The notes below the pieces were generated by a model. That model did not search any database, was not told the origin of the DNA, and worked only from the letters and a program-made list of their open reading frames with translations. Positions 2,211 to 13,831 of a stretch of 64,000 bases of DNA are shown here, in pieces; positions within the stretch are counted from its first letter, which is position 1, and each line of letters opens with the position of its first letter. Source of the DNA: Thermostichus lividus PCC 6715 (GTDB lineage: Bacteria; Cyanobacteriota; Cyanobacteriia; Thermosynechococcales; Thermosynechococcaceae); the NCBI RefSeq assembly GCF_002754935.1, contig NZ_CP018092.1, positions 1,736,001 through 1,800,000 on the forward strand, written 5' to 3'. The position numbers were made by a program, and so were the translations under genes.

Positions 2211-3244
2211 CTACGTCAGAAAAATATCCTGCCAGAGGCGATCGTAGGTCTGCTGGGCGGCGGCAGGCAGGGGCAGCAGTGCCTCACTACGGGTCAACAG
2301 GGTTTGCAGATCAACATAACGATTCGCTTGGGCTAGGCTGAGATCCCCCAAGACGGGGGACACTGCCGTTGTAAACTGGCTTAACTGCTCGGCTACGGTG
2401 GGTTGCCACCAGTACTGTAACCAAGCGGTTGCCGCTGCATCGGGCACTTGGGAGCACACCCACAGATCCGCCCACAGTGCAGTTCCTGCCGCCGGAGCCA
2501 CCACTGCAAACGTATCGGGCTGCCGCTGCACGAGGGGGAAAATATCGCTCGACCAGCCCACGGCCAATTGTGTACTGCCTAAGATCAAGGGCTGAAGATA
2601 GGCATCGGAGCTAAAGAAACCGCACCGTTGCCGCAGCGCCAGTAATCGCGCTTCGAGGTCTGGATGGTCGGGGGGGTCATTGTAGGTGCGCCCCAAGGAC
2701 TTAAGGGTGAGACCAATCACTTCGCGGGGGGTGTTCAGCAGGCTATAGCGCCCGTCAAGGTCAGGGTGCCACAGGGCATCCCAGTTCGTGGGTTCCCAGC
2801 CTAAATTGGCAAAGAAATCGCGACGATACACCATGAGGGTCGCACCCCAGCGATAAGGAATACCCCAAACGGCATCGTTGGCGCTGAACCGTGCTAAGAA
2901 GGTGCGCCAAGGTGGGGTAAGGAGCGACCAATTTTCAATGCTGCTTTTGGGAATGGGCTGAACCCACCCGTTGGCGACGGCCGCTGCCAGCCAAGCATCC
3001 CCCAAGCTAACGATAGCCGCCCCCCTGTTGTCGTTGGCGAGGGTATCGGCAAGGCTCTGGGGGTCTCTTTCAGGCGCAGGTTCACCCCAATGCCATGGGT
3101 TTGGCGAAAACGGCGGATGAGTTGGGGCGGCAGGGACTTTTGCAGCAGATGTACGGTAATGCCCCCTTGGCTTGATCCTTGGCACCCAGCTAGTGCCATG
3201 GCGGCGATCGCCACTCCCCCCTGACAAAATTCGCGTCGCTGCAT
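2211..3244 (-). CDS. PotD-like extracellular solute-binding lipoprotein (frameshifted as sequenced)
   Basis: Periplasmic binding protein of the spermidine/putrescine (PotD/PotF) type, probably presenting a polyamine-like solute to an ABC transporter that is not encoded nearby. The N-terminus has a twin arginine (MQRREF) and a lipobox (LAGC), suggesting a Tat-exported lipoprotein. The mature part has the family pattern NDAVWGIPYRWGATLMVYRRDFF. The reading frame breaks at the five-G run 3059-3063 (CCCCC on the coding strand). One extra C joins GVNLRLKETP to QSLADTLANDN and gives about 344 residues, a normal family length. The start codon overlaps the pgi stop as TAATG, so the two genes are translationally coupled. 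Either a sequencing indel or a recent pseudogene. Confidence 0.75.
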
Positions 3245-4832
3245 TAGCGTTGCCAACAAAACTGTAGTTGGTTGGGACACGCCGGATCCCCCAGTTGCGC
3301 CACGCCGCGATCGTTGGCCACCAAATGCCGCAGAATCAGGTAAATGGTTTCTTGCTGCTCGGAGGCGTTGAGCGCTTGGGCGATCGCCTGCACATCTAAT
3401 GGCGCAGTACTCTGCTGGAGCACCTTCACAATCTGTTTTTGTAACGCCAGAGTGGCGGCGGCTGCTTTTTTGCCCGCCTCCACCCCCGGTTGATGGTAGG
3501 CATTGATATTCACCAAAAAGCCGTACAATCCTACTGCCCGCTCGTAGAGGGCAATGAGTGCCCCCACCGTCCGAGGCGTGACCTCTGGAATGGTGACGGT
3601 GAGGGAAGGCCGATCCTTTTCGTAGAGAGCTTGGCGCGTCCCCAACAGCAGACCGCTCAAATAGTCACCGGCGGTAATGCCCGGCTCCACCTCAATGCCT
3701 GGTTGCTGGCCATCCCGCAGTACCTCGATAAACGTCACAAAAAAATTTGCCAAGCCGTCGCGTAGCTGCTGCACGTAGGCGTGCTGATCTGTGGTGCCCT
3801 TGTTGCCATAGACGGCAATCCCTTGGTGGACAATGTTGCCAGCAAGGTCTTTCTCCTTGCCCAAGGATTCCATCACTAACTGTTGCAGATAGCGGCTAAA
3901 GAGCAGCAGGCTATCTTTATAGGGCAGAATGACCATATCTTTTTCGCCACGGCCGTTCCCTGCGTGGTACCAGGCCAAGGCCAACAGAGCTGCCGGATTT
4001 TGGCGCAGTTGCGGCACCCGGGTAGCCTGGTCCATTTGCCGCGCCCCGTGGAGCATGGCTTCAATGTCAATCCCCTGTAGGGCGGCGGGCAACAGACCCA
4101 CGGCGGAGAGTTCGGAGGTGCGCCCCCCCACCCAGTCAAACATCGGGAAAATTTCCAGCCAGCCATTGGACTCGGCAATTTGGGCAAGGCCACTGCCGGG
4201 CATGGTGATAGCCACTGCGTGGTCAGCAAAGGCTAAGCCTGCCTGCTGATAGCGGGCTTGCGTTTCCAGCATACCATTGCGGGTTTCTGGGGTGCCCCCA
4301 GACTTGGAAATAACGATGACCAGTGTGGTGCGCAGGCGATCGCCAATTTGGGCAAAAACCCGCTCAAATCCCGCTGGATCAGTATTATCGAGAAAGTGAA
4401 TGGCCAAGGGGGGGTAACGGGTGCTAAGGCGGCAGACACAAACTGGGGGCCCAGTGCCGAGCCGCCAATGCCAATGGAGAGAATATCCGTAAAGCGTCCA
4501 CCTTGGGGTGGGGCAATTTGGCCGGAATGGATGTACTGGCTAAAGCGATGCACCTGGGCGATTCCGTCGCGAATCTCAGCCCGTATCTCTGGGGTGGGGG
4601 CAAGGTCGGCATCCCGCAACCAGTAGTGCCCCACCATTCGACCTTCATCCGGGTTGGCGATCGCCCCCGCTTCGAGAGCCTGCATCTGCTCAAAGGCGCG
4701 CCTAAAGGCAGGCTCTAGGTCACGAACAACGTCTTGGGTCAGCCCCATCCGACTGACATCAACGTAGAGATCAAGGTCTGGGTGGTAGTACAGCCAGTCT
4801 TGGTAGTGGTGCCAAAGAGCCAAAGCATCCAT
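3244..4832 (-). CDS. pgi: glucose-6-phosphate isomerase (frameshifted as sequenced)
   Basis: Interconverts glucose-6-phosphate and fructose-6-phosphate in the cytoplasm, feeding glycogen metabolism and the oxidative pentose-phosphate pathway. The N-terminal part ([25 protein letters not shown]) and the C-terminal part ([36 protein letters not shown]) lie in different frames. The junction is the seven-G run 4408-4414. One more base reads [18 protein letters not shown] and restores about 529 residues, the usual cyanobacterial length. Because pgi is a core gene, an assembly indel is the likelier cause. It lies divergently from acs, about 130 bp away, and is coupled to the downstream PotD-like gene. 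Confidence 0.9.
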
Positions 4833-6949: not shown

Positions 6950-7537
6950 ATGGCGACTGGCATTCGCACAAAAACGCTGATTTTGCTGGCAACTGCGGCC
7001 ATTTTGGGAGGCAGCCTCTTTTTATTTGAGCAACAACTACCGGCACCAAACGCACCAAGTCAACAAACCAAGGCTCGCCTCTTTAGCTTCCAAGAGGCGG
7101 ATGTTACCGCTCTCAAGATTGTTGCGCCCCAGTACACCCTTAACCTCAAAAAGCAGAAAACGGGGACGTGGGTCATTCAGCGAGAGCAGGAGGTACCGGC
7201 GGAAGAGGGAACCGTTGTCTTTTTATTAAATTTGCTGACCACGGGTGAGCGCGATCGCTCCCTTGACGTGCCCACGAATCGTGCCGCTGACTATGGCCTT
7301 TTGCCCCCTATGGCTACCCTAGAGATGACCCTTAAGGATGGCACTCAGCATCGGCTATTACTGGGCAACCCAACCTTTGATGGCCGGCAACTCTATGCCG
7401 AAATTGACCCCCAACCACAGCCTCGTGACACTATGACAGTCACCTTGGTTCCCTTAGACCTGAAAAATGCTATTGAACGTCCCCTGATCGAGTGGGAGCG
7501 CCAGCCAGCCCCACGCTCACCCGAACCCTCAAACTAA
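6950..7537 (+). CDS. DUF4340-family membrane-anchored protein
   Basis: A 195-residue protein with an N-terminal signal anchor (TLILLATAAILGGSLFLF, residues 9-26). A periplasmic or lumenal domain follows, with the DUF4340 pattern: SFQEADVTALKIV, TGTWVIQRE, AADYGLLPP, and a TLKDGTQHRLLLGNPTFDG segment. Relatives sit beside ABC exporter or gliding-type genes in other bacteria, but no partner is present here. It begins 15 bp after acs and probably shares its transcript. Its last bases overlap the end of the convergent 62-residue gene. Function unknown. Confidence 0.7.
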   Translation: MATGIRTKTLILLATAAILGGSLFLFEQQLPAPNAPSQQTKARLFSFQEADVTALKIVAPQYTLNLKKQKTGTWVIQREQEVPAEEGTVVFLLNLLTTGERDRSLDVPTNRAADYGLLPPMATLEMTLKDGTQHRLLLGNPTFDGRQLYAEIDPQPQPRDTMTVTLVPLDLKNAIERPLIEWERQPAPRSPEPSN

Positions 7538-7722
7538 GCGTCAGCCACCCGAATCAGGTTTTTCTTCAGTAGGGCTTGCAAATCTGCATTGTGGGTTTTG
7601 CAGTTGCGCCAACGGCGTTCATCAACATTTTCATTCCGACCCGGCTGGAGGGTCAGCGGGCCAAAAAAACTATCGAAGGTGATGGGTTGCTCTAACTCAC
7701 TAATTACTGTCACCATTGTCAT
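7534..7722 (-). CDS. conserved small hypothetical protein, coupled to ATP-grasp gene
   Basis: A 62-residue soluble protein starting MTMVTVISELEQPITFDSFFGPL and ending KKNLIRVADA. I do not recognise a named domain. The start is chosen because its ATG overlaps the stop of the upstream ATP-grasp gene as TAATG, the usual mark of translational coupling; longer starts would run back into that gene. The coupling suggests that the two products work together or in fixed ratio. In many bacteria this ATP-grasp type is followed by an alpha-E protein, which is absent here. Confidence 0.55.
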   Translation of the reverse strand: MTMVTVISELEQPITFDSFFGPLTLQPGRNENVDERRWRNCKTHNADLQALLKKNLIRVADA

Positions 7723-9155
7723 TACTCGCTTAATACCCAAGTATCTTTACTGCCACCTCCTTGGGAGGAATTTACCACTAAGGATCCGGGCTTCATAGCA
7801 ACCCGTGTGAGTCCTCCGGGGTGCACGTAAATCTCTTTGCCATAGAGAATATAGGGGCGCAGATCCACATGGCAGCCAACAATCTCATCGCCGAGGAGGG
7901 TTGGTACCCGCGAGAGAGACAGGGTAGGTTGGGCAATATAGTTGCGGGGGTTAGCCTTCACGCGCTCAGCAAACTCAGCCCGCTCACTAGCTGTGGATTG
8001 GGCGCCAATGAGCATCCCGTAGCCCCCCGACTCGTTGGCAGATTTGATCACCAATTCATCTAAATGATGGAGCACGTAGTCGAGTTGCTGCGGTTCCCAG
8101 CACAGATAGGTGGGGACGTTCGGTAACCGCAGCTCTTCCCCCAGATAGTAGCGGATCATTTGGGGAACGTAGGCATAGATCACTTTATCGTCAGCAACAC
8201 CAGTGCCCAAGGCGTTGGCGATCGCTACCCGTCCTTGACGATAGACCTCTGTTAAGCCTGCCACCCCTAGCATCGAGTCCGATCGAAAGACGGCCGGATC
8301 AATAAAATCATCATCAATGCGGCGATAGACCACATCCACCCGTTTTAAGCCTTTGGTGGTACGCATTTGCAAGTAGCCATCTGCCACCACCAAATCCCGC
8401 CCTTCCACAAGGGTGACACCCATCTGCTGCGCCAAAAAAGAATGCTCAAAATAGGCTGAGTTATACATCCCCGGAGTCAGTACCACCACTGTGGCATCCG
8501 GCAATCCGGGTGGGGCTAGGTTCAATAGGGTTTCCAGTAAATGGCTGGCGTACTCATCCACCGGTTGGATATCCAACTCCTTAAATACCAGCGGAAAGGT
8601 ACTTTTCATCACCCGTCGATTCTCAAGCACATAGGAAATGCCAGAGGGACAGCGCAAATTATCCTCAAGGACATACCATGTGCCGTCGCGATCGCGCACC
8701 AAGTCAGTTCCCGTAATATGGCACCAAATTCCTGCGGGTGGCTTTAGATCGTGGCAAGCACGCAGATAGCCCTTGGCTGACTCGATGAGTTCCCGGGGAA
8801 TCACGCCATCATTAATGATTTTTTGCTGGCCATAGACATCCGCAATAAAACAGTTCAGCGCTTGAATGCGTTGCTTGAGCCCCTGTTCAAGCTGCCGCCA
8901 CTCTTGCGCCGGAATCACTCGCGGCAAAATATCAAAGGGCATAATCCGCTCGGTGCCCTCCTCAGAGCCATAGACCGTAAATGTGGCACCGATGTTAAAC
9001 ATGACCTGCTGAGCCGTGGTTTGGCGCCGTTTTAGCTCTCCTTCTGGCAGCGATCGCACCCGCCGTAAGAGAGGCTCAATAAACGGTCGTGGCTGACCGC
9101 GGGCAATAAACCACTCATCATAAAAATCGCCCGGATCGTAATTATCGAGTTCCAC
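7722..9155 (-). CDS. circularly permuted ATP-grasp protein (DUF404/DUF407 type)
   Basis: About 477 residues with the pattern of circularly permuted ATP-grasp type 2 proteins: YDPGDFYDEWF near the start, PFDILPRVIPAQEW, RELIESAKGYLRACHDL, DLVRDRDGTWYVLEDNLRCPSGISY, and a C-terminal VIKSANESGGYGMLIG segment. Such proteins are predicted carboxylate-amine ligases that may modify a peptide; the substrate is unknown. I place the start at the GTG at 9155 because GGAGAG stands five bases upstream and relatives start close to YDPG. An ATG at 9182 with a poor ribosome site would add nine residues. It is divergent from the UbiB-type gene across a palindrome-rich gap. Confidence 0.75.
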   Translation of the reverse strand: MELDNYDPGDFYDEWFIARGQPRPFIEPLLRRVRSLPEGELKRRQTTAQQVMFNIGATFTVYGSEEGTERIMPFDILPRVIPAQEWRQLEQGLKQRIQALNCFIADVYGQQKIINDGVIPRELIESAKGYLRACHDLKPPAGIWCHITGTDLVRDRDGTWYVLEDNLRCPSGISYVLENRRVMKSTFPLVFKELDIQPVDEYASHLLETLLNLAPPGLPDATVVVLTPGMYNSAYFEHSFLAQQMGVTLVEGRDLVVADGYLQMRTTKGLKRVDVVYRRIDDDFIDPAVFRSDSMLGVAGLTEVYRQGRVAIANALGTGVADDKVIYAYVPQMIRYYLGEELRLPNVPTYLCWEPQQLDYVLHHLDELVIKSANESGGYGMLIGAQSTASERAEFAERVKANPRNYIAQPTLSLSRVPTLLGDEIVGCHVDLRPYILYGKEIYVHPGGLTRVAMKPGSLVVNSSQGGGSKDTWVLSE

Positions 9156-9231
9156 TATTCTCTCTCCACTGCTGCTCAGCATCCTTGGACGTTCCCAAGT
9201 ATCCTAGCTTCCATGTTTGTCTATTTCCCTA

Positions 9232-9249
9232 TAGTACAAAGTTGTACTA
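9232..9249. promoter_or_regulatory. perfect 18-bp palindrome containing a GTA-N8-TAC NtcA-type site
   Basis: TAGTACAA-AG-TTGTACTA is a perfect inverted repeat in the divergent gap between the ATP-grasp and UbiB-type genes. Its core GTACAAAGTTGTAC matches the consensus GTAN8TAC of the cyanobacterial nitrogen regulator NtcA. Neither direction shows a convincing TAnnnT box at the spacing typical of NtcA-activated promoters; the nearest on the minus strand, TAGGAT, is 27 bp away. Binding is therefore plausible, but the sense of regulation is open. Confidence 0.45.
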
Positions 9250-9263
9250 GCTTCAATGACGTA

Positions 9264-9275
9264 AGCACCGGTGCT
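9264..9275. promoter_or_regulatory. 12-bp perfect palindrome AGCACCGGTGCT
   Basis: A second perfect palindrome 14 bp beyond the NtcA-like one, 63 bp before the UbiB-type start. No known factor is recognised. It could be a second operator in this divergent control region. Confidence 0.3.
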
Positions 9276-9338
9276 CCTCACAGAGGCGTTAGCCAAGTCA
9301 ATTGTTACAATACGTTACAGCGTTATCCCCACATCCCT

Positions 9339-11273
9339 ATGAACACGGCCTTACCCCCTGCGTCTGAGTCTCCCCAAGACATTGCGATCGCTGCTGAAGC
9401 GCTACCCAATGGCAACGATGAGTTTCAGCCCTACGATCCGGAGGCGATCGCGGCTTATTATCGGCAACGCCCCTTGCTGGTGATCAGCCGTTGGGTGCAG
9501 ATTCTGTGGCCGGTGTTTTGGCTGCTATTCAATCGCTGGTGGGATAACCTCACAGGACAAGGGAAGAAAAATCAACATCGCCGGGCGATCGCCCTGCGAG
9601 ATACCCTAACCCGCCTCGGTCCGGCCTACATTAAAGTGGGGCAGGCACTGTCCACCCGCCCAGACCTGTTGCCTGCCGTTTACCTTGAAGAACTGACGAA
9701 ACTCCAAGATCAATTACCGGCGTTTCCCAATGAGGTTGCATTTCGCTTTATCGAGGAGGAACTCGGGGCACCCCCCCAGGAACTGTTTGCCGACCTGAGT
9801 GATCAGCCCATTGCGGCGGCATCCTTAGGGCAAGTTTATCGTGGTCGCCTCAAAAGTGGTGAAATAGTTGCCGTCAAAGTACAGCGCCCCGGCCTCGCTG
9901 AAAGTATTACCCTTGACATTTACATTTTGCGGGGAGTGGCCTACTGGGCTCAACGCCTCATCAAAGAAATTCGCAGCGATTTGGTGGCAATTTTAGATGA
10001 GTTTGCTAGTCGGCTGTTTGAGGAAATGGACTATACCCAAGAGGGGCGTAATGCCGAGCGCTTTGCCCGTCTCTACGGTCATCTACCCGATGTCTATATT
10101 CCAAAAATCTACTGGGACTATACCCGCCGCCGCGTCCTGACCATGGAATGGGTGACGGGGGTCAAGCTCAACCAGCCACAGCAAATTCAAGCCCAAGGGA
10201 TCGACCCCCGCTATATGGTGTATGTTGGGGTACAGTGTTCCCTGCGGCAATTGCTGGAGCACGGTTTCTTCCACGCAGACCCACACCCCGGCAACCTGCT
10301 GGCGATGCCCAATGGTAAACTCGCCTACCTTGACTTTGGCATGATGAGCGAGATTGAACCTGCCCAGCGCTACGGTTTACTGAATGCCATTGTTCATATT
10401 GTCAACCGCGAGTACGAAAGTCTTGCCTATGACTATGTGCGCTTAGGGTTTTTGGCGGAAGATACCAATCTAGAGCCAATTATTCCGGCGCTGGCGCTGG
10501 TCTTTGAGGATGCCCTAGGGGCAAGTGTGGCTGAGTTGAATATTCAGCGCATTTTTGATCGCCTTTCGGAAGTAATGTACGAGTATCCGTTTCAGGTGCC
10601 CGCTTACTATGCCTTAATTGTGCGATCGCTACTCACGATGGAAGGGATTGCCATGGGCGTGGACCCAAACTTCAAGGTGCTCAGTGCGGCCTATCCGTAC
10701 ATTGCCAAACGGCTCCTTACCGATTCAGCGCCGGAGTTGCGCACTAGCTTGGCAAACTTGCTGCTCAAGGATGGTCAATTCCGCTGGACCCGCCTTGAGA
10801 ATTTGCTGCGTAATGCTCGCGAAAGCCGTGACTACGATTTTAATGTGGTGTTCGAACAAGCCCTTGACTTTTTATTTTCTGAGCGGGGTGAGTTTTATCG
10901 CGATCGCCTTGCCGATGAAATTGTCAAGAGTTTGGATACTTGGGCACGGGTAACGGTGGGTCAGTTCAATGTGGCGCAGATGTTACCGCTGGTTACCCGC
11001 CCCATTCCCACCAGTAGCGCCCCAAGCATTATCAGCGAACCCAATGCCCTTGAGCATTTGCGGCGGATTTTTAGTATTTTGCAGGACACCCCCGGGTTTG
11101 ATGTGATGAAGATTATTCCTGCGATTCTGAAAATTATCCTCCGCCCAGAATTGCAGCAGATGGGACAGCGAATTGTCAATGGTCTCCTCCAACGGGCGAT
11201 CGCCCGCTTTGTCCGGGAAGTCTTTTTAGCAGATACAAAACCTCAACTGCAATCCACAGGGGCAACCAACTGA
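9339..11273 (+). CDS. ABC1/UbiB-family atypical kinase
   Basis: A protein-kinase-like ATPase of the ADCK/UbiB family, about 644 residues; cyanobacterial members are linked to quinone and tocopherol metabolism and membrane stress. Family marks are present in order: the KxGQ motif (KVGQALSTRPDLLP), the alanine-rich loop (AAASLGQVYRG), the lysine strand (VAVKVQRPG), EMDYTQEGRNAERF, the catalytic loop HADPHPGNL and the DFG-like YLDFGMM. A C-terminal extension of about 250 residues follows. The start at 9339 (MNTALPPASES) is preferred over an upstream in-frame ATG at 9213 because the extra 42 residues look non-coding and would cross both palindromes. Confidence 0.85.
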   Translation: MNTALPPASESPQDIAIAAEALPNGNDEFQPYDPEAIAAYYRQRPLLVISRWVQILWPVFWLLFNRWWDNLTGQGKKNQHRRAIALRDTLTRLGPAYIKVGQALSTRPDLLPAVYLEELTKLQDQLPAFPNEVAFRFIEEELGAPPQELFADLSDQPIAAASLGQVYRGRLKSGEIVAVKVQRPGLAESITLDIYILRGVAYWAQRLIKEIRSDLVAILDEFASRLFEEMDYTQEGRNAERFARLYGHLPDVYIPKIYWDYTRRRVLTMEWVTGVKLNQPQQIQAQGIDPRYMVYVGVQCSLRQLLEHGFFHADPHPGNLLAMPNGKLAYLDFGMMSEIEPAQRYGLLNAIVHIVNREYESLAYDYVRLGFLAEDTNLEPIIPALALVFEDALGASVAELNIQRIFDRLSEVMYEYPFQVPAYYALIVRSLLTMEGIAMGVDPNFKVLSAAYPYIAKRLLTDSAPELRTSLANLLLKDGQFRWTRLENLLRNARESRDYDFNVVFEQALDFLFSERGEFYRDRLADEIVKSLDTWARVTVGQFNVAQMLPLVTRPIPTSSAPSIISEPNALEHLRRIFSILQDTPGFDVMKIIPAILKIILRPELQQMGQRIVNGLLQRAIARFVREVFLADTKPQLQSTGATN

Positions 11274-11366
11274 CCTTCTCCCCGCCCACGGGGGGGCTTG
11301 GAGATGTCCCGATGAACCCACCTCACGCCAGAATTCACCAAAGAATCTAAGCGACACGCTGGTGCC

Positions 11367-11657
11367 GTGCTGAGGCTACGGTGGCTTGGCTATAGTCTGC
11401 CATTGGTGTGGAGCCTAGGGGGGAATCGCCCAACCGGCTGCCCCGACCTGCTCTGCATCAGAGCTTCTCAGTGCCCCTCACTATCGTGGAGATACCCTTG
11501 AGCTAGAAGAAGAGCGCCTTTACAATCTCATCATGGCCTACCGCCAACAGCACAGTCTTTCTCCATTTCCCTCTCGCCCTCGCTGAACCTAGTCGCTATC
11601 CAGCAACACCAAGCCTTTGGGCAGCTTGAGCACAATTGTTGGGAAGCGATAGGGTAA
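11367..11657 (+). pseudogene. decayed CAP (SCP/PR1)-domain exported protein
   Basis: No intact gene fills 11274-11682, but three frames read together resemble the start of an exported CAP-domain protein. A GTG-started hydrophobic leader (VLRLRWLGYSLPLVW) leads into GIAQPAAPTC after a six-G run near 11420. Then come LELEEERLYNLIMAYRQQHSLSP, the typical first helix of CAP domains, and LSPSLNLVAIQQHQAFGQ in a third frame, ending at a TAA. At least two frame changes and loss of the catalytic half make this a relic. The identification rests on a short motif. Confidence 0.4.
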
Positions 11658-13432: not shown

Positions 13433-13831
13433 CTAACCGCCGCTTTTGTGCCTCTTGATCGTTGGCTTTGGCACGGCGGAGCGTCTTTTCTTTAATGTCA
13501 ACCCATGCTTTTTTAGAAAATTATGTATCGTGACTGTACTGACATTAATCCCTAGCTGCTCGCTGATCATGTCTCGGTACTGCCATAGGCACTTGTCTGG
13601 ATAGGCTACAATAATCTCCATCACCTTGCTGTAGTTTTGATCTAGAATGCCAATTCGTTTTGTCCCCACTTTCTTAGGGGTTAAGTCCTGTGTCTCTTGA
13701 TACTGCCGAACCCATCGATGTACGGTTCTCTTGGTCACCATGAACCGCTCTGCTACCTGCCGGATGGAGGTTCCGCCCGCTTGATAGGCCGCCACAACCC
13801 TGCGCCGTAAATCTAAGGAGTGGGTTGGCAT
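13433..13831 (-). mobile_element. IS630-family transposase orfA fragment
   Basis: A 132-codon reading frame with the helix-turn-helix N-terminal domain of IS630-type transposases (HSLDLRRRVVAAYQAGGTSIRQVAERF, KRTVHRWVRQYQ). An AGGAG ribosome site precedes the ATG at 13831. At TTA-AAG-AAA-AGA a -1 shift would continue as KKKTLRRAKANDQEAQKRRLES, the natural junction to the catalytic half, but a stop follows within about 20 codons and no DDE domain is present downstream. The element is therefore truncated and cannot move on its own. I found no convincing terminal inverted repeats; the gap 13832-13995 holds only a short AGCTTA-A-TAAGCT palindrome. Confidence 0.7.

Follow-up and report, generated by a model that had tools for sequence, protein, structure and literature searches.

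In Proteobacteria the gene for Anbu belongs to an operon with the gene order ATP-grasp, alpha-E, transglutaminase, Anbu, and in nitrogen-limited Pseudomonas putida the Anbu gene is raised, as described in the portions available of two publications (PMC6376114, PMC5666114). Class II promoters of the cyanobacterial nitrogen regulator NtcA, among them those of glnA, nirA, ntcB and urtA, combine a GTA-N8-TAC core with a -10-like box about 22-24 nt further downstream, to judge from the part of PMC3898017 at hand. For the HLR1 element the consensus KTTACAWW-N2-KTTACAWW is given in the consulted parts of PMC11633204 and PMC13421787, the latter a review according to which an HLR1 that overlaps the transcription start results in repression by RpaB.

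The window, by which we mean the whole analysed stretch of 64 kb, harbours sequences resembling parts of each of these systems in and around a single short intergenic region (Table 1). With a probability of roughly 0.8, based on sequence comparison, the inverted repeat at 9232-9249 is a chance sequence within a junction private to this genome and most likely not bound by NtcA, while the ATP-grasp genes of most other families possess an ancestral NtcA-type promoter which was lost in the window's clade, and the HLR1-like repeat is probably a working signal.

Table 1. Features in and around the intergenic region (positions refer to the window).
Feature	Position	Strand	Remarks
Circularly permuted ATP-grasp protein (CP_ATPgrasp_2)	7722..9182	-	PF14403, E 2.6e-172, profile 1-374 of 374, full-length; solved relative 3n6x, E 2.8e-159
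Private junction between ATP-grasp and UbiB/ABC1 genes	9183..9297 (115 bp)		without homologue in relatives
Inverted repeat TAGTACAA-AG-TTGTACTA with GTA-N8-TAC core	9232..9249 (core 9234-9247)		most likely chance sequence
Perfect 12-bp palindrome AGCACCGGTGCT	9264..9275		no sign of function; inside private junction
HLR1-like direct repeat GTTACAAT-AC-GTTACAGC	9304..9321	+	14/16 RpaB-box positions; overlaps TACAAT -10 at 9306-9311
UbiB/ABC1 atypical kinase gene	9339..11273	+	PF03109, E 8.2e-86

The divergent genes and the HLR1-like box

As stated in the preliminary description, the region is a divergent one: 156 bp separate the ATP-grasp gene from the UbiB/ABC1 gene. Translation of the former would start at GTG 9155 or ATG 9182 and that of the latter most likely at ATG 9339, the list of open reading frames also holding a longer UbiB frame from 9213. 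A UbiB/ABC1 gene is present in all 58 genomes and a match to the ATP-grasp protein in 52 of them. To judge from its ATP-grasp fold, this protein would be an amide-bond former.

The HLR1-like repeat in front of the UbiB/ABC1 gene is probably a working signal of the intergenic region. Among the upstream sequences of this gene, which were examined in 30 of the 58 genomes, the motif GTTACAAT-NN-KTWAYA occurs at 20 of 30 loci and, outside the window's genus, at 18 of 19. In contrast, it is found in none of 123 ATP-grasp upstream regions used as controls and in one of 20 chosen upstream regions of other ABC1 paralogues. All 19 loci outside the genus reach an HLR1 score of 13 to 16 out of 16, while control upstream regions mostly yield 11 to 12. 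Within the window's genus the match is weak, eight of eleven members scoring 12/16, which equals background; most of the genus may thus have lost the HLR1 box too.

It is conceivable, if rather unlikely, that the motif is no RpaB box but simply an extended -10 promoter whose start region is favoured. The element does contain TG-N-TACAAT, and nine of ten congeners retain a TTAAAAT -10 while their second repeat is degraded. Against this, the second half of the element is kept at a fixed distance past the -10 in 18 of the 19 orthologues outside the genus, and both its spacing and its letters are those of HLR1; to our knowledge, a half-site beyond the -10 is part of no core promoter. Taking the repeat as an HLR1 box, RpaB would repress the UbiB/ABC1 gene in low light and release it in high light, acting at a predicted binding and start site. 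The conservation of the element suggests that the high-light RpaB regulon includes this ABC1-type kinase. Titles and abstract openings on RpaB and ABC1 contain no report of RpaB together with an ABC1 kinase, the texts consulted offer no RpaB data on this kinase gene, and neither HLR1 nor ABC1 was found in the text of PMC5785211.

Upstream of a different ABC1 paralogue of one relative, L305 (G012:C2:1121726-1122426), we observed GTTACAATCTGTTACAGA, which agrees with HLR1 at 15 of 16 positions.

The ATP-grasp promoter and its fate in the window's clade

According to the preliminary description, the ATP-grasp gene would be linked to nitrogen status by NtcA. Where the gene of most other cyanobacterial families is concerned, this proposal is well supported by a predicted NtcA site, whereas the window's own clade seems to have lost such a site. 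A GTA-N8-TAC core is present in 72 of 123 oriented 300-bp regions upstream of ATP-grasp genes and, if the window's genus is set aside, in 71 of 114. These 123 loci, to which 125 given loci were reduced as L173 and L179 yielded no anchor, represent part of the matching genomes (52/58 and 142/194 in two overlapping sets). Related loci are not independent of each other and the count by family is the safer number: at least one site-bearing locus occurs in 21 of the 27 families outside the clade (22 of 28 groups if the clade is counted as one). Six families (4, 8, 14, 17, 20 and 33) show no site among 16 loci, hence NtcA-type control is not universal.

Among all 4096 pairs of triplets separated by eight nucleotides GTA/TAC ranks first, compared to a mean count of 7.6, and the next two pairs, with counts of 49 and 42, are made up of its own flanks. 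When the spacing is altered to N7 or N9, the count drops to two in either case. The sites share the consensus GTATCnnnngcTACAGt, and a TA begins 22, 23 and 24 nt past the site in 19, 28 and 12 of 73 sites, respectively, with a further TA peak at 29-30 nt; the strict form TAN3T is rarer at these three distances (0, 7 and 10 of 73). In named cyanobacterial records the core is found at 14 of 21 loci versus one of 58 non-cyanobacterial homologues, a set from which L285 was left out.

The ATP-grasp gene of most cyanobacterial families would accordingly carry an ancestral class II NtcA-type promoter, consisting of GTATCnnnngcTACAGt and a -10-like box 22-24 nt downstream. In named cyanobacteria the gene is followed by genes for an alpha-E protein (PF04168) and, further on, a transglutaminase-like protein (PF08379, PF01841), the Pfam assignment of the cluster genes referring to L209, L212, L217 and L225 only. 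Under nitrogen shortage, NtcA together with 2-oxoglutarate would bind and switch on these three genes. Titles and abstract openings on NtcA with ATP-grasp, transglutaminase or Anbu, or on Anbu with nitrogen, contain no report of NtcA control of the ATP-grasp gene, the main regulon papers lying outside this scope; likewise, the main text of the Anabaena NtcA ChIP paper contains none of six site cores looked for in it.

Among 21 genomes, ATP-grasp and alpha-E are both missing in two (G031 and G036), and in two congeners (G006 and G009) only remnants of both persist, in the form of short pieces or of copies with stop codons. Since the two genes were lost or have decayed in the same genomes, it is suggested that their products work together.

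In an ATP-grasp tree of 46 loci, on which sites were labelled within 350 bp rather than 300 bp (this adds L027), the window's genus and three further genera (G012, G016 and G019) form a clade with a support of 99/98. The site is present at every one of the 14 same-family loci outside this clade. Within the clade the core is found at one of 12 loci only, and this one is the inverted repeat of the window. At the background rate of other spacings, 12 loci would contain one or more cores with a probability of 0.39. The window's clade thus appears to have lost the NtcA site of its ATP-grasp gene. In the window's genome the alpha-E gene is located at 2,091,602, far from the ATP-grasp gene at 1,743,725. 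We considered whether, in the window's genus, the NtcA site might now precede the detached alpha-E gene and rejected this, as no GTA-N8-TAC is present within 400 bp upstream of alpha-E at any of 12 loci read (seven congeners and five outsiders) or within the 6 kb around alpha-E in the window's own genome. The course of events would be one in which the clade dropped the ancestral NtcA site, with alpha-E elsewhere in the genome in the members checked.

If this holds true, a widely conserved amidoligase-type cluster joins the cyanobacterial NtcA regulon, and its membership tells when the product is to be sought, namely upon nitrogen step-down. The window's clade, devoid of the site, would then provide a natural contrast.

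The inverted repeat at 9232-9249

Positions 9232-9249 of the window read TAGTACAAAGTTGTACTA. An inverted repeat is indeed present where an 18-bp perfect palindrome had been described, but it is an interrupted one: two arms of 8 bp, which are 100% complementary, enclose the two non-palindromic nucleotides AG. The claimed GTA-N8-TAC core is in place, and so is a second, truly perfect palindrome nearby. Neither of the two is clearly above the chance level for a scan of 64 kb. Inverted repeats with 8-bp arms and loops of 0-2 nt occur four times in the window versus 0-5 times in eight order-1 Markov resamplings, GTA-N8-TAC occurs eight times versus 3-13 times in 20 resamplings, and perfect 12-bp palindromes number 22 versus 14-19 in five resamplings. 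Throughout the genome TAGTAC-N6-GTACTA is found once without mismatch, and GTAC-N6-GTAC at ten places compared to 25 for its reversed control, which means that sites of this kind do not form a dispersed family; with one copy and no enrichment, a genome-wide repeat or regulon site was rejected. An intrinsic terminator was dismissed as well, no G+C-rich stem followed by a T run being present within 9140-9360, and no Rfam element reaches its gathering threshold within 7500-11500.

The repeat lies in sequence that is private to this genome. In a blastn comparison with the closest relative (G010), whose ATP-grasp is 94% identical to that of the window, homology stops at 9182 and restarts at 9298, and the ATP-grasp and UbiB/ABC1 genes of this relative start near 233,010 and 384,917, that is, about 150 kb apart. 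When 9183-9300 was used as a query against 57 genomes, no hit in a genome other than its own had an E value better than 0.02; over 19 bp, 9194-9212 resembles the 3' end of ATP-grasp genes from congeners (E about 3), which we attribute to chance. A rearrangement would have brought the ATP-grasp and UbiB/ABC1 kinase genes into their divergent arrangement, giving rise to the short private junction which holds the repeat. A short open reading frame at 13433-13831 on the minus strand resembles the N-terminal part of an IS630-type transposase and is presumably a mobile element, or a remnant of one, near the rearranged region. Two overlapping minus-strand frames in different reading phases (4233-4832 and 3244-4407) resemble a single glucose-6-phosphate-isomerase-like gene, which we take to be split by a frameshift or a sequencing error.

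As an NtcA operator the repeat is very probably to be rejected because of its matrix score, its flanks, the distance to the -10 and the loss of the site throughout the clade. The matrix, which was built solely from 70 distinct sites of the ATP-grasp gene family and may score atypical sites too low, assigns -6.8 and -6.4 bits to the repeat, compared to a family median of 19.0, and 1293 of 127962 window positions score as high. By comparison, this genome's own ntcA upstream site reaches 9.7. The flanks are disfavoured, as a C following GTA is seen in one and a G preceding TAC in none of the 73 family sites, although the core in one ntcA upstream region (L189) does have a C after GTA. On the ATP-grasp side the nearest -10-like box, TAGGAT, is 27 nt away from the repeat instead of the 22-24 nt typical of NtcA, and the UbiB side lacks a -10 at 22-24 nt. 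Loss of the palindrome in close relatives had been named beforehand as speaking against NtcA control, and such loss is what we found: none of the eight congeners with an intact ATP-grasp gene has the palindrome upstream of that gene. The UbiB upstream sequences of ten congeners also differ from that of the window. NtcA control of the UbiB gene was rejected, GTA-N8-TAC being present in only one of the 30 UbiB upstream regions, a set which includes the window's own.

One might argue that the site was regained in this lineage, a new GTA-N8-TAC having arisen within the junction after the clade-wide loss and having retied the ATP-grasp gene to nitrogen. In favour of this, the core is intact and well placed, its position 92 nt before the GTG start falling inside the range of the family sites, the relatives of the gene are mostly under an NtcA-type site, and NtcA is encoded in this genome. 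Yet the disfavoured flanks, the poor matrix score, the offset of the -10-like box and the ease with which at least one core is expected by chance among the 12 clade loci render a regained site improbable. Equally improbable is an operator of another lineage-specific dimeric regulator, e.g. a repressor of the LexA or TetR type acting on either gene or on both, since, albeit two 8-bp arms within a divergent region make a well-placed symmetric site, it exists in one genome copy, GTAC-N6-GTAC stays below its control, the sequence is not conserved and its spacing is 2 nt off what we take to be the cyanobacterial LexA box. Most likely, the repeat is a chance near-palindrome found in this genome only, and in itself of little importance.

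Comparison with described systems

With class II NtcA promoters (available part of PMC3898017) the ATP-grasp genes of most other families share both the core and the distance of the -10-like box. In contrast, the repeat of the window shares the core only; its flanks and its -10 distance are different and it is not conserved. Compared to RpaB-repressed high-light promoters, as far as presented in the accessible portions of PMC13421787 and PMC11633204, the UbiB gene has an HLR1-like repeat situated over its presumed -10 and start region, the copy in the window agreeing with the consensus repeat at 14 of 16 positions.

We further consider it likely, from sequence, that the genes for ATP-grasp, alpha-E and transglutaminase are under direct NtcA control in the majority of cyanobacterial families and represent an Anbu-less counterpart of the Anbu operon, forming a nitrogen-starvation module which makes or edits peptides or proteins, and that the window's clade has lost this control, with alpha-E away from ATP-grasp in the members checked. 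Unlike the Anbu operon, the two cyanobacterial clusters whose next open reading frame was inspected have no adjoining Anbu gene, and ATP-grasp and alpha-E lie at distant places in the genome of the window. In the portions available on the Anbu operon of Proteobacteria, however, the gene order is the same as that of the cyanobacterial ATP-grasp, alpha-E and transglutaminase-like genes, and the response to nitrogen limitation in Pseudomonas putida is what NtcA control would predict for the cyanobacterial genes.
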